From Aldrovandia affinis (lineage: Eukaryota > Chordata > Actinopteri > Notacanthiformes > Halosauridae), in the NCBI GenBank assembly GCA_029706075.1, contig JAINUG010000116.1, positions 914,501 to 978,500 on the forward strand: 64,000 nt of DNA, read 5' to 3'. Within the stretch, counting starts at the first letter, position 1; each line of letters begins with the position of its first letter. The notes under the pieces were generated by a model. It was not told the origin of the DNA. It saw only the letters and a list, made by a program, of their open reading frames with translations, and did no database searches. A program made the position numbers and the translations under genes. This document shows positions 8,101 to 61,200 of the stretch, in pieces.

Positions 8101-11100
8101 GGTGCGAAGGCTGTAATTGGATGAGGTTGACGGCGACACGCTGAGTACGGATGTGCCTGGCCCCCACATCCGTCTCTGTCACGTCTGCAATTTCTCACCG
8201 TGTAACCGCCATTCAGCTGAGCTTTTAGCAATATATATTTACAACAAATGCATTTGTTTTTGTTGTTGTTTTTCCCTTCAATATTTTTCTCTGTACTGTA
8301 ATATCGCTGGGTTCATCATGCGGTAAAGCAGAGGCCGGATTTATGAACTCCAAACATGTATTTCGGGATTAAAAAGGCGGATCTTGGACGCATGAGAGCA
8401 TTACCAAGAGGTCTTAGGATTACTCCGCTGTCCAGCTTTCTTGAGAAAAAAAAAAAAGCTTCTAGGAGAGACGGGGGGGGGGGGAGGAGGATGTGGAATA
8501 AAGAAAACAAGGCAGCTTAATCCCCAAACCCAGCCCCCTGCTCTGTCCCACTTCCCACAGCCGCTCACAGTGTAGCGCATTGTGGAATGCGGGTTTGGTG
8601 GCATCCTGTTCGGTGACAGGAAGCACAGCGGGCCGCACTGGAGAACAAAGCGCTCGGGGGCAGGGGGGGGGGGCAGGGGGCTGGCGGGTACGTCCGGCCG
8701 TCCGTCCGGCCGGCCGGCTGGTGCCACAGTGGGGTCTGGGGAGCTGTTAGCCAGCTTTTACTCACTGGCATGTATATTAGTCCCCGAGGTCGAATGAGGC
8801 TGGATTAAAAAGGGCTTCCGTGCGCCAGGCCGACAGATGCATTCTCTTTTGAGCGTCTCTCCGAGGAGGCTGCGCTTTCTCAAGTGCTGATACTAATCGG
8901 ATTTAAGATGACATATTGCCTGGGTGAAGTGGATTGTCATGGTCCTGGGAGAGGGGGGGCGGGGGTGGAGAGGCAGAGAGGACCGACCAGGCAAATGGGT
9001 CAACAGCAGGGCGCTTGGCAACGTGGCGTGTGAGCGCAGTGACGCGGCTCAGGGAGCGGTCAGCCAGCCGCCATGATGTCACTGCGGAGGGAACTTAGAG
9101 CGCGTATGAGACGGCCATCAAGACATAAAATGTGTTCTTGTGGCTCAGTAGGTAGATCGTGGTTCTGTGTGGCACAGTAGGTAGAGCGTGGTTCTGTGTG
9201 GCTCAGTAGGTAGAGCGTGGTTCTGTGTGTCTCAGTAGGTAGAGCGTGGTTCTGTGTGGCTCAGTAGGTAGAGTGTGGTTCTGTGTGGCTCAGTAGGTAG
9301 AGCGTGGTTCTGTGTGGCTCAGTAGGTAGAGCACGGTGTTGGCAAAGCTTAGGTTGTGGGTTAATTTCCCACTGGAAAAATGTATGCATTCATTACTGTA
9401 AGTTGCTTTGGATAAAAGCATTTGCTAAATGGCATATATTATATTATATTATTATTAAAAAGAGTAGAGTAAACATTCGACTTGACTGAGGCGCTCACAG
9501 GACGGGCGGAAGTGCAGTGCACATCGATCACGGTGCAGTGCAGGCAAAGCAAAGCTGTTGAATTTCGACTCATAAGGTGTAAGGAAGCTTTATCTCGAAA
9601 ATGGAAATATTGCCGCGTAGTTTCAACTCGATTCCCTCCCTGCCAATAACACGCCTTTTGATGTCCTTCAGCGTGCATCGTTCATTCTGAGGTGCCTGCT
9701 GTCTGAGCTGAGTCTGAGCTGCAAGAGCGGTTCCCAGGGCATTCTGTAGGGGCACGAGGATCCCCACTTTGTCACGGTTTAGAATTCTGCTTAATTCAAA
9801 TGTTTCTTAACGAGATTTGCCCACCGGTGAGCGACCAAACCTCACAGCCTCCGCGTGGTAAGCCAATTGCCCTCTGGGCAGAAGGACGGCCCGTATTGTG
9901 TCCCCTTTAACGCCCCGCTGGTTCCACTGGACTTTCCTTTCTCTGTCTAGGAATACCCAAAATATCCCCGTCTCTTTTCCGTGTCTCTCAGATTAGAGGA
10001 GCAGATGAAAGCGGGGTTAAGTAAATCTCCGGGACCCTGTTTAAGTGTGCTGTGTGTAATGGAGATCCCGTTAGACGGTGATGAATAGAACCCAGGGCCG
10101 CTCACGCCGTGCTGAACAGATGGCCAGCGCAAATTGAAAACACTCAGCAGCACAAATCAAAAAAGGTGCACCTCTGGGATACCCCCTCCCCAGCCCCCTC
10201 CCTACCCCTCCTTACACCCCCCCCTACCCCAGCCCCCCTCGACGGCGTGATGCTGAGCCCAGCCCTGTCGAGGCGTGGTCACCCGAGCCTGCGGGCAGGA
10301 GGTCGAGGGTCACCAGTTTGGTGTGGGAGATCGGGGGAGCTCATTTCTCCTACATCCTCAGCGTTGCATCTGCACTGTCCGCCCAACACTTGTAAATATG
10401 CCCGCACGTGATGTGTTTTAAATAACTTGTGTGTGTGTGTATATGTGTACTCTCTGTGTGTGTGTGTGTGTGTGTGTGTGTGTGTGTGTGTGTGTGTGTG
10501 TGTGTGTATATGTGTGTGTGTGTGCTGTGTGTGTGTGTGTGTGTGTGTGTGTGTGTGTGTGTGTGTGTGTTGAAAGATCTCAGAAGTGCACGAACATTAA
10601 CTTGCACAAAAGGCAGAGAGAGAATAACAGAGTTGAGTGGGCCTGCGTGACTCCGGCTCTTTAGCGCTCTGTTTTGAGTTCTGCTTTCAGCGCAGATAGG
10701 GGGTTGCCATGGCGGTGCTCTGTTTACTGGTCCGTCTCCCCGCCATTATCTCGGCAGTGAAAACGGCGAGATTAACCGCAGCTCGACGTGCCAGCGCCAG
10801 AGTCGTGTCAACGGGGGAACGTTTTGATACCAGAGCTGCTACAGAAGCTCTCTAAGGATCGGAAATCACTTTAAATCCCAACCCGTTGTTTGGGTGGCTG
10901 TGCACTCCCTGTGGCTGACTCCATTCTGTCAGCACCCCGCTCGAACCCTCAGGCACAGACGTTCACTCTGACCAGAGGTGTCCTCTAGTGACGTCGGGCT
11001 TCTGCACAATTCGCCACTTTTTCTTTTTGTGGTCTCTTTTCTTAACAAGCGTTGAGTTGAAAGGAGAGCAGAGGCCTAGTGACTTGGCGCTCAGGAATCC

Positions 11101-58200: not shown

Positions 58201-61200
58201 ATACAGCTGTGTGTACTGATTGTGCACACCTGATGTCAATGACAATGGTATACATTCAAAATAAAAATTAGTATAAATGAGCCTCTATCACGAATGATTA
58301 TCCGCACTGTTTGTATGCAATTGAATCATATATTAGCATATTATCAATGGTACCGAAAGTCAAAAAGTGAGATAGTAATTCTAGTCATTTCTTAGAACTC
58401 CCCATCGCCTGTTCGTGGGCGCGTGCCTGCATGCTGTTGTCTTTATTTGTGCAATACACGGATTCCAATCTGTATCATCGTTTTAAAATACAGAAACGCC
58501 TCAACTGATTGTAATCAACATACATACAATTATTCTTTATGAATTGTCATGATGAATGCGGCAATATTGTATTAGTGAGGTATTACAGTGCGATAACAAT
58601 GGATGACAGAAGTATTGTAGGCTATCTAAACATTTCAAGAACGCAATCACGTAACGAACACGGCAGGTGTCGAAAGTGGAAACAATTGGCGGCGATGTGA
58701 TTAGAATGAAAATACATTTATAGTGGCTAATCAGAATAATTATTAATAACATGTTTCATTGGTCATAAAGCACGAGCATAGTTATTAAACAAAGACTTAA
58801 CGGGGAAAAAAAAGATGTTTAGACCGGATCGCTGACTCTGAGGCTCAAGCAATGCCCAGGAGCAGCAGACTGGTTTGAAAGCACAATTTAGTGCCTACCG
58901 CCAGACAGGGCAGTGCTTTTGGGCAATGGTCTCGTTGGTGTGTCTGGTCTGTATCATTCCTAGTTTTCCCTGCAGTCTGGTACCCCCTACATTTTACATT
59001 TTAGGCATTTATAATAATAATAATAATAATAATAATAATAATCTATCAGACGCTCTTATCCAGAGTGACTTACACAATTTACATTTCTTTGCATACAATC
59101 CATTTATACAGCTGGATATTTTACTGAAGCAATTCAGGTTAAGTGGGAATTATTCCCAGGTGGGAATCGAACCAGCAACCTCTGAGTTACATGCCCAGCT
59201 CCCTAACCACTACACTACACTGCCACCCCTAAGTTGGGGTTTCTCCATAAAAACGTGGTCACGGAGGCGTCTGCTCTTGGCTTCAATAAGAACAAAGTGT
59301 GAAGCCCTGAACACTGCACACTCACTGCACACTCACTGCACACTCACTGCACACTCACTGCACACTCACTACACACTCACTGCACACTCACTGCACACTC
59401 ACTGCACACTCACTGCACACTCACTGCACACTCACTACACACTCACTGCACACTCACTGCACACTCACTGCACAGGACCCTTTCTTTACCACGAATCCAC
59501 ACTGAAAAGCCCCTCATAAATACACATTTACGCGGAACAGACATTTTCGCCTTAGAAAGCGCACAGCAGTTCGCTGGTTCAAGGCGTTCGACTGACTGTG
59601 CAGCTGAACTGGGGCTAGCGGCCGTTTCCTGTGGGTTTATCATCTTCACCCACCTAAATCATCAGAGGATTATACATTGGACCAGAAGGAGAGACCAAAA
59701 AAAATCTGTACTCACTTTTGCAGCTGACTGTACCTTTAATTCTTCAATGCTTCGTTAATCATAAGCAATTTTATATAATGTACTGTATATATATATATAA
59801 TACAGTATATGCTATTTATCAGACGCTTTTATCCAAAGCGACTTACAGTAGTGAATGCATACATTTCTCAGTACATGTGGTCCCAGTGGGAATTGAACCC
59901 ACGACCTAAGCGTTTCCAACCCTAAGCGTCTACCTACTGAGCCACACAGAACCACGCTCTACCTACTGAGACACACAGAACCACGCTCTACCTACTGAGA
60001 CACACAGAACCACGCTCTACCTACTGAGACACACAGAACCACGCTCTACCTACTGAGCCACACAGAACCACGCTCTACCTACTGAGACACACAGAACCAC
60101 GCTCTACCTACTGAGCCACACATTATTACAGAATTACACACCACAGAATTACAGAATTTTAAACTGGACTGTAATCTGATATTGTTCTGGCGGAGTACAG
60201 GTTGAGCATGCTGTATGTCAGGGAATGTGTGGACCCATTTCCATTGTATTCGCTCCTCTTCTCTTCACATAATTTAATTTCCAGTGTGGTGTGTTTCATG
60301 AGTGTTCTCTGTTTGGGATAGCCGAACCACAGTATGAGGTTTCCGTTTCTGTCTCGTACCAGCGCAGTAATATATAAAAACATATGCCATTTAGCAGATG
60401 CTTTTATCCAAAGCGACTTACAGTAGTGAATGAATAAATTTTTCAGTATATGTGGAACCCACAACCTAAGCGTTGCCAACACCATGCTCTACCTACTGAG
60501 CCACACAGAACCACGCTCTACCTACTGAGCCACACAGAACCACACTCTACCTACTGAGACACACAGAACCACGCTCTACCTACTGAGCCACACAGAACCA
60601 CACTCTACCTACTGAGACACACAGAACCATGCTCTACCTACTGAGCCACACATTATTACAGAATTACACACCACAGAATTACAGAATTTTAAACTGGACT
60701 GTAATCTGATATTGTTCTGGCGGAGTACAGGTTGAGCATGCTGTATGTCAGGGAATGGGTGGACCCATTTCCATTGTATTCGCTCTTCTTCTCTTCGCTT
60801 AATTTAATTTCCAGTGTGTTGTGTTTTACGAGTGTTCTCTGTTTGGGATAGCCGAACCACAGTATGAGGTTTCCGTTTCTGTCTTGTACCAGCGCAGTAA
60901 TATATAAAAACATATGCCATTTAGCAGATGCTTTTATCCAAAGTGACTTACAGTAGTGAATGCATACATTTTTCAGTATATGTGGTCCCAGTGGGAATTG
61001 AACCCACAACCTAAGCGTTGCCAACACCGTGCTCTACCTACTGAGCCACACAGAACCACGCTCTACCTACTGAGCCACACAGAACCACAGTAGTGACCAA
61101 ACTTTACGTTTTGGAATTTAGGTTTCCAGAAAACAAATGAAATAATAGTGAGTGAGTGAAGAAATGTTATCATCACCCTCTTGCTTGTCTTAATCTGTGA

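Follow-up and report, generated by a model that had tools for sequence, protein, structure and literature searches.

The window (the whole 64-kb stretch of Aldrovandia affinis DNA that was analyzed, positions 914,501 to 978,500 of contig JAINUG010000116.1) contains 12 copies of a tRNA-derived SINE, 11 of which have kept an L2-type (UnaL2) tail. In 10 of the 12 copies, the UnaL2 tail (RF00436) scored above the Rfam gathering score; the tail of the 32.2-kb copy aligns with those of the other copies, and the 37.4-kb copy has none. The tRNA-like heads were matched by Rfam in 9 of the 12 copies, and ARAGORN found a tRNA-like head fold at four. Depending on the copy, the 29 bp with which the head begins occur as 1, 2, ∼6, 7, 8, 16, 25, or 27 tandem units (Table 1). 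Tandem Repeats Finder detected the arrays as 29-bp repeats, and the numbers of units were obtained by array splitting and wrap-around alignment, with the 37.4-kb array scored by splitting only. Together, these methods confirmed the head arrays of 1 to ∼27 units that a first-pass annotation of this DNA had reported, as well as its statement that expansion always affects the 5′ head on the outer side, which is true of all arrays in the window. In eight of the nine arrays, the units are followed by the SINE body and tail, the exception being the cut body at 37.4 kb. Inspection of the flanks, by eye only, revealed what is seemingly a long target-site duplication at one locus (L041) and none evident at the window arrays. 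Separately, a Pfam scan of eight open reading frames from the window returned two transposase fragments (DDE_3) and a single weak hit that fell short of its cut-off.

Table 1. SINE copies, head arrays, and tandem duplications in the 64-kb window (TRF, extent called by Tandem Repeats Finder)
Feature	Position	Strand	Basis
5.8-kb SINE copy, one full head; A-box region also imperfectly duplicated (∼17 bp), with other breakpoints	5822..5974	-	Rfam, array splitting
9.1-kb head array, 7 units, outermost diverged	9132..9334 (TRF 9134-9332)	+	
9.1-kb SINE body and UnaL2 tail	9335..9438	+	Rfam, alignment
11.4-kb SINE copy, single head	11383..11531	-	Rfam, splitting, alignment
15.7-kb SINE body and UnaL2 tail	15721..15840	-	Rfam, alignment
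15.7-kb head array, 16 units	15841..16304 (TRF 15837-16304)	-	
32.2-kb SINE copy, single head	32160..32310	+	ARAGORN, splitting, alignment
34.0-kb SINE body and UnaL2 tail	34018..34137	-	Rfam, alignment
34.0-kb head array, ∼27 units, several small internal indels	34138..34921 (TRF 34129-34921)	-	
37.4-kb head array of 27 units; the body breaks off at ∼30 nt and has neither B box nor tail	37414..38205 (one TRF call, 37414-39370, spans the 37.4- and 38.5-kb arrays and the DNA between)	-	
38.5-kb SINE body and UnaL2 tail	38523..38642	-	Rfam, alignment
38.5-kb chimeric head array of 25 units (5′ flank matches that of 37.4; body plus 3′ flank match those of 39.7)	38643..39370	-	
39.7-kb SINE body and UnaL2 tail	39690..39808	-	Rfam, alignment
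39.7-kb head array, 8 units	39806..40043 (TRF 39806-40042)	-	
59.8-kb head array, ∼6.8 units, outermost unit partial	59929..60122	-	TRF, splitting, alignment
60.4-kb chimeric head array of ∼5.8 units (5′ flank matches that of 59.8; body plus 3′ flank match those of 60.9), B box deleted	60481..60652	-	
60.9-kb head array, 2 units	61031..61088	-	TRF, splitting, alignment
Tandem duplication, exchange point inside head arrays	37448..40043	.	37448-38874 versus 38639-40043, 95.1%; non-array parts 97.1%, 97.5%
Second tandem duplication, exchange point inside head arrays	59791..61089	.	59791-60544 versus 60370-61089, 88.0% overall; non-array parts 93.0%, 97.2%

The 5′ end of the SINE itself (GTGGTTC...) lies ∼2 nt ahead of the unit start given in the first-pass annotation. 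The duplicated 29-nt piece starts at this end of the element (GTGG) and stops directly ahead of an internal RTGG (nucleotides 30 to 33), and it therefore has a short TGG microhomology at both ends. Each array had been described as a tandem set of A boxes matching TRGYNNARNNG. Most units do retain a consensus base at A-box position 3, with G in 129 of the 180 non-terminal units scored in the window and in fetched arrays. However, 48 of the 180 carry a G-to-T change that does not fit TRGYNNARNNG, so that not every unit has a consensus A box, and this variant is common to many separate arrays. The A box of the body-adjacent unit looked plausibly conserved in the window, but this failed an unbiased count, in which the otherwise exact copies listed had 13 G and 7 T at this position; T was also present in the body-adjacent unit of 1 of 16 arrays inspected (L055a). 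The single B box, said to be left in place by the expansion, is missing from the copy at 37.4 kb and deleted from that at 60.4 kb. The CpG site at the junction between units read CG in 106, TG in 40, CA in 28, and GA in 1 of 175 cases, a pattern of decay that would be expected of methylated CpG. Unit identity between loci was 0.97 compared to 0.84 for the body (10 array-bearing loci), a difference that we do not take as proof because choosing units by a strict pattern biases the comparison. A D-arm hairpin was rejected as a cause of slippage, as 175 nt of array folded no better than shuffled sequences (z = -0.04).

Eleven or so copies with the same body and L2 tail had been counted in this DNA. 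The window has 12 copies, and not all of them are independent. Because the copies at 37.4, 38.5, and 39.7 kb and those at 59.8, 60.4, and 60.9 kb form two sets of tandem duplicates, the window holds ∼8 insertion histories rather than 11 or 12. In each set, the middle copy (38.5 or 60.4 kb) is a composite whose 5′ flank is that of one neighbor and whose body and 3′ flank are those of the second, which is the product that would be expected from unequal crossing-over within the head arrays. Compared by eye, the 37.4- and 38.5-kb arrays have a common unit order, differ by whole units, and contain a recurring internal block of variant units.

The genome-wide search with the 29-mer and the SINE body, a check proposed in the first-pass annotation, revealed 40,746 occurrences of the exact 35-nt unit-unit junction in 1.22 Gb versus 0 for a reversed control, which excludes a chance origin of the junctions. 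Matches to head plus body with ≤2 mismatches identified at least 2,970 dispersed copies, and at least 360 of the 2,970 matched have two or more heads. Among 30 loci selected by body, 22 had one head, 4 had two to four 29-bp heads, 3 had none that we found, and 1 (L044) carried a longer duplication of the head plus 5′ flank. In most of the dispersed copies that were sampled, the same 29 bp form the only head, so the arrays come from the head of this SINE. The arrays occur almost exclusively in one subfamily: a sister subfamily, which has a counterpart of the 29-bp head, had only 21 dimer junctions for at least 1,833 copies. Copies with several heads were also clustered, with 28 same-contig pairs among 35 such copies, whereas 20,000 subsamples from 90 copies regarded as single-head gave 4.9 pairs on average and never more than 19. 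Contigs for which a coordinate or length of >5 Mb was listed carried 2 of the 35 multi-head copies versus 21 of the 90 single-head copies (P = 0.022). The 13 exact multi-head copies were spread over 11 contigs. Arrays independent of SINE bodies, a finding that the first-pass annotation had set against a SINE origin, do exist in part: of 15 loci selected by array, 9 continue into the SINE body and 4 are body-less (4 of 13 judgeable edges), including one of 42 units (C18).

These arrays probably represent an emerging SINE-derived satellite whose growth has come chiefly from duplication and unequal exchange at the DNA level. The process would have begun within one subfamily of a SINE with a tRNA-like head and an UnaL2 tail, by tandem duplication of the initial 29 nt, which contain the A box and make up the 5′ portion of the head; the TGG microhomology seen in the sequence presumably guided the first event. 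The arrays would then lengthen and shorten by whole units through unequal exchange and, to some extent, DNA slippage. Crossing-over between neighboring arrays would produce tandem segmental duplications and chimeric loci, as the structure of the two window cases suggests, and probably also spreads unit variants among loci; some arrays would lose, or cease to adjoin, their SINE body. Function is not required to account for the arrays. The chimeric copies at 38.5 and 60.4 kb, the whole-unit differences, the restriction to one subfamily, the clustering by contig, the body-less arrays, the single-head majority, and the decay of the junction CpG all argue for this reading. Against it stand the partial outer units of some arrays, the wide sharing of the G-to-T variant, and an alternating (dimeric) order of units, the mark of dimer-wise growth, that was not significant (lag-2 z = 1.05). 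The occurrence of multi-head copies on many contigs also counts against it, and local DNA exchange alone is insufficient to explain this spread unless there were many origins of duplication or some copies were RNA borne.

Could the heads instead have multiplied at the RNA level? In target-primed reverse transcription, an enzyme that has copied the SINE RNA to its 5′ end might reanneal through GTGG and the RTGG at nucleotides 30 to 33 and recopy the head, or Pol III might start at outer A boxes, with the multi-head RNAs then inserting. We consider this origin unlikely. Consistent with it, the outer edge lies within ∼0.1 unit of the element 5′ end in 12 of 17 scored arrays and the inner edge sits at the TGG microhomology; however, the same microhomology predicts the same product by DNA slippage, so that the junction cannot separate the two routes. 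A partial outer unit, as expected if a multi-head RNA were reverse transcribed and then 5′ truncated, precedes complete inner units in three independent arrays (L001, with 8.59 units; L007, with 1.45; and the 59.8/60.4 pair). This is hard to obtain from one truncated insertion, and 5′ truncation also occurs among single-head copies (L052, L060, L069, L076, and L080), but later deletion at the edge could also leave a partial outer unit. The presence of copies with two or more heads on many contigs is in line with RNA-borne spread, whereas retrotransposed multi-head copies should be scattered like single-head ones and are more clustered by contig; arrays of 27 to 42 units are also long for such a route. 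The first-pass annotation had listed slippage or template jumping in reverse transcription and multi-start Pol III transcripts as possible causes. Slippage-type expansion fits our data, but the leaning toward reverse transcription and Pol III finds little support in them; the window shows a structure of the kind that DNA-level exchange between arrays leaves behind. A broader version is similarly doubtful: reverse transcription, jumping from the RNA 5′ end to the internal RTGG, would build multi-promoter heads from which Pol III starts at any outer A box, making array-bearing elements live sources of variable-head copies, while the arrays also act as recombination points that duplicate their flanks.

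Selection for the arrays as tandem TFIIIC A-box sites, whether for promoter strength or for an insulator-like function, is very improbable: most non-terminal units keep the consensus G, but the A-box-breaking T is found in 48 of 180 and in the body-adjacent unit of 7 of 20 otherwise exact copies, and some arrays lack a B box or body. Weaker still, and close to refuted, is a preexisting 29-bp satellite into which SINEs inserted or which they captured as a head; body-less arrays such as that at C18 fit this idea, but in the dispersed copies with one head these 29 bp form the 5′ portion of the tRNA-like head itself, the sister subfamily has the counterpart head almost without arrays, and most scored arrays begin in register with the element 5′ end.

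The eel UnaSINE type is an UnaL2-tailed fish SINE, and the duplication in rodent B1 is a fixed family feature, whereas the array described here is open-ended and lies at the 5′ end. The first-pass annotation knew of no SINE-head satellites, but SINE-derived satellites (sSats) as a kind were described in squamate reptiles in 2023 (Vassetzky et al., PMC10702118), so that the 29-bp arrays represent a further case of a known kind. As the excerpted text of that paper presents them, squamate sSats likewise repeat part of a tRNA-headed SINE in tandem, end in a longer unit that continues to the SINE terminus, and occur at many loci with few to hundreds of units and a dominant unit form; its authors favor a start by unequal recombination. 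The same excerpts point to differences beyond those of SINE and host. Squamate units are 67 to 215 nt long rather than 29 nt, the main snake unit takes in the B-box-containing 3′ part of the head and some of the body, whereas the repeat here is confined to the 29 nt at the 5′ end, which include the A box, and squamate sSats prefer subtelomeric sites, while our clustering is seen by unplaced contig only (PMC10702118). Rodent B1 and related SINEs, also mentioned there, resemble our case in having a ∼30-nt internal duplication. For the tandem families newt PolIII/TAN, Xenopus OAX, Rana/polIII, and Hydromantes Hy/polIII, a tRNA-like part is claimed; in the passages concerned, units are ∼200 to 360 nt where a length is given and no matching SINE is shown, in contrast to the parent SINE found here in thousands of matched copies (PMC10702118). 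By description, the UnaL2-tailed SINEs of fish, including the eel type and the HAmo SINE of cyprinids, also have a tRNA-like head and an L2-type 3′ tail; the part of the HAmo SINE account considered here names tandem repeats only at the 3′ end (TAAATG), whereas head arrays are the feature of the present SINE (PMC2653535).

Our data suggest that the step from interspersed to tandem repeat, as in squamates, is seen in this genome, which looks fish-like by its UnaL2 repeats, too, with a very short array-forming unit that comes from the 5′ promoter end of the element. Sister subfamilies differ in array content by about three orders of magnitude, and at two loci the structure suggests that arrays mediated tandem segmental duplication. 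This SINE is a well-defined system in which to study how a satellite begins.

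The 12 copies of the tRNA-headed SINE within the window, 11 of which keep the 3' tail, carry from 1 to about 27 tandem copies of a 29-bp unit that derives from the SINE head. With Rfam, the UnaL2 3' element was recognized in 10 of the 12 copies and a tRNA-like head in 9, and ARAGORN folded four heads into a tRNA-like form. The unit corresponds to the element from its 5' terminus (GTGGTTC...) up to, but not including, an internal RTGG at nucleotides 30 to 33; TGG, a three-base identity, is thus present at either end of the duplicated segment.

Head units of the SINE copies, and other features of the window and of sampled loci
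Feature	Position	Detail
SINE copy	5.8 kb	1 unit
SINE copy	9.1 kb	7 units
SINE copy	11.4 kb	1 unit
SINE copy	15.7 kb	16 units
SINE copy	32.2 kb	1 unit
SINE copy	34.0 kb	~27 units
SINE copy	37.4 kb	27 units
SINE copy	38.5 kb	25 units
SINE copy	39.7 kb	8 units
SINE copy	59.8 kb	~6.8 units
SINE copy	60.4 kb	~5.8 units
SINE copy	60.9 kb	2 units
Imperfect A-box-region duplication in 5.8-kb copy	5822-5974 (copy)	~17 bp; breakpoints unlike those of the 29-bp unit
UnaL2 3' elements of other repeats (second SINE or LINE family)	2236, 6449, 19466, 31745, 47792, 63441	no 29-bp array beside them
Tandem duplication outside head arrays	16749-19531 vs 19472-22275 (span 16749-22275)	2.8 kb, 97.6%
DDE_3 transposase-like fragment	25196-25579 (+)	below Pfam's curated cut-off
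DDE_3 transposase-like fragment	35831-36235 (-)	above Pfam's curated cut-off
Long minisatellite, GGTAAGGGGTAG-type	28534-29502	periods 123, 206, 247; SINE-unrelated
Long TC-rich minisatellite	40627-41453	period 17; SINE-unrelated
Duplicated SINE head with 5' flank	L074 (= L044 locus, contig C73), 770-920	tandem, longer than the unit
Array joined directly to B-box part of body	L055 (contig C180), 560-700	20 units; intervening stretch lost
Body-less array	C18:10844-11033	42 units; adjoins another dispersed repeat with >=40 further matches

How do arrays of such different lengths arise? The first-pass annotation had treated the copies as independent insertions, which does not hold for all of them: shared flanks and bodies in our alignments relate the 37.4-, 38.5- and 39.7-kb copies to one another, and likewise those at 59.8, 60.4 and 60.9 kb. 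The 38.5-kb copy has its 5' flank in common with the 37.4-kb copy, and its body variants and 3' flank in common with the 39.7-kb copy. Positions 37448-38874 match 38639-40043 at 95.1% (outside the arrays, 97.1% over 413 bp and 97.5% over 354 bp); the corresponding values outside the arrays of the second set are 93.0% (386 bp) and 97.2% (281 bp). Through much of the 37.4- and 38.5-kb arrays the variant units follow one another in the same order, but the two arrays differ by whole units. The relation between the copies at 59.8, 60.4 and 60.9 kb is the same, with 60.4 kb sharing the 5' flank of 59.8 kb and the body and 3' flank of 60.9 kb. Two loci in the window, at 38.5 and 60.4 kb, are chimeric in make-up. 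To judge from their structure, both sets have the order predicted for out-of-register pairing of neighboring arrays followed by crossing-over, which would give flank B, array, body B, spacer, flank A, hybrid array, body B, spacer, flank A, array and body A; assembly error is a possible source of the same order. Crossing-over is the probable cause of the chimeras. The region abounds in recent tandem duplications, including one of 2.8 kb outside the head arrays.

Variation among units was scored at their junctions and in the A box. The two bases preceding TGGTTC at 175 junctions were CG in 106, TG in 40, CA in 28 and GA in 1, counted by a regular expression that misses decayed junctions and with the duplicated 37.4- and 38.5-kb arrays both included. 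This is the pattern of CpG deamination, and the junction CpG is probably methylated. At position 3 of the A box, 129 of 180 non-terminal units have G, 48 have T, two have C and one has A; the T breaks the fit to the consensus TRGYNNARNNG that had been proposed for every unit. Exchange probably spread these unit variants.

We then asked how abundant the arrays are in the assembly (1.22 Gb, 2,576 contigs; the window lies on C180). A 35-nt junction pattern, exact except for three two-way positions, matched 40,746 times, and its reversed control 0 times. The window accounts for 73 of these matches, against ~116 junctions counted there; scaling by this ratio, from a window that is array-rich and may be atypical, would put the genome total at ~65,000 units, ~1.9 Mb or 0.15%. 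A 57-nt head-plus-body pattern (<=2 mismatches) gave 2,970 matches, and its extension by the last bases of a preceding unit (64 nt in all, <=2 mismatches) gave 360. At least ~12% of matched copies therefore carry two or more heads, a lower bound because decayed junctions use up a mismatch. Thirty loci selected by an exact match to a 64-nt body sequence, those at the top of a listing of 100 out of 285, agree with this. One head was found at 22 (some 5'-truncated), no recognizable head at 3, and between two and four heads of 29 bp at 4 (L042, L053, L056, L058). C180 holds six of the 30, two inside the window, and three of the four multi-head loci are among these six. At the remaining locus, L044, the duplicated piece is longer and comprises both the head and its 5' flank; duplication of the head region can thus take in flanking DNA too.

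Multi-head copies lie on many contigs and are clustered by contig. In two sets typed by hand from the matches listed on C1 to C1770, which differ in the mismatches allowed, 35 multi-head copies (0-1 mismatch; one is the window's 60.4-kb copy) formed 28 same-contig pairs. In 20,000 subsamples of 90 copies taken as single-head, some of which may hide decayed second heads, such pairs averaged 4.9 and never exceeded 19. The 90 are 99 exact listed matches minus 9 that recur in the multi-head list, with one match beyond C1770 dropped. Contigs for which the listing gives a coordinate or length >5 Mb held 2 of 35 multi-head and 21 of 90 single-head copies (p = 0.022). Local duplication contributes to the clustering.

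The arrays are nearly confined to one subfamily. Its sister (TCTCTG, TTGG, CACGG) gave 1,833 matches at <=2 mismatches, although the 57-nt patterns of the two differ at four places and some copies may count in both; only 21 sister dimer junctions were found (pattern exact except for three two-way positions). In place of the array subfamily's ATGG the sister reads ACGG, whose identity with the 5' GTGG is shorter, and we conjecture that this matters for the scarcity of arrays there. A single founder duplication accounts for the restriction equally well.

The first 100 junction matches, a non-random sample in contig order, comprise 15 array loci. A SINE body follows the array at nine of them (L001, L007, L028, L029, L081, L085, L086, L089 and C47:1188 kb, which was scored from its multi-head pattern match). 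Four arrays lack a body (C18, L082, L084, L087), and two loci were not scorable (L083 stops too soon; L088 consists of N). C539 and C2499 match the C18-adjacent repeat almost as far as the array and may have related arrays of their own.

The most likely mechanism overall begins with a single head duplication in one subfamily, probably at the microhomology. Units would then be gained, lost and exchanged in DNA, neighboring arrays would cross over and duplicate the DNA between them, and the body would be lost in some places. Array edges bear on another route, in which multi-head SINE RNA is reverse-transcribed and inserted. The outer edge coincides with the element's 5' end, to within ~0.1 unit, in 12 of 17 scored arrays; one of the 17, L028, has no scorable start. 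Partial outer units in 4 of the 17 array rows, at three independent loci (L001, L007 and the 59.8/60.4 pair), are the main support for RNA insertion and suggest it for some arrays; later edge deletion would explain them equally well.

No fish case with a head-only unit was found in listings of mostly open-access literature, including PMC6951006 and PMC2653535. A study of SINE-derived satellites in scaled reptiles (PMC10702118) calls their restriction to squamates uncertain and describes satellites of the same kind as the head arrays, in which the end unit is extended, loci are long and one form of the unit is preferred. The head arrays of Aldrovandia affinis belong to this already described kind, SINE-derived satellites.
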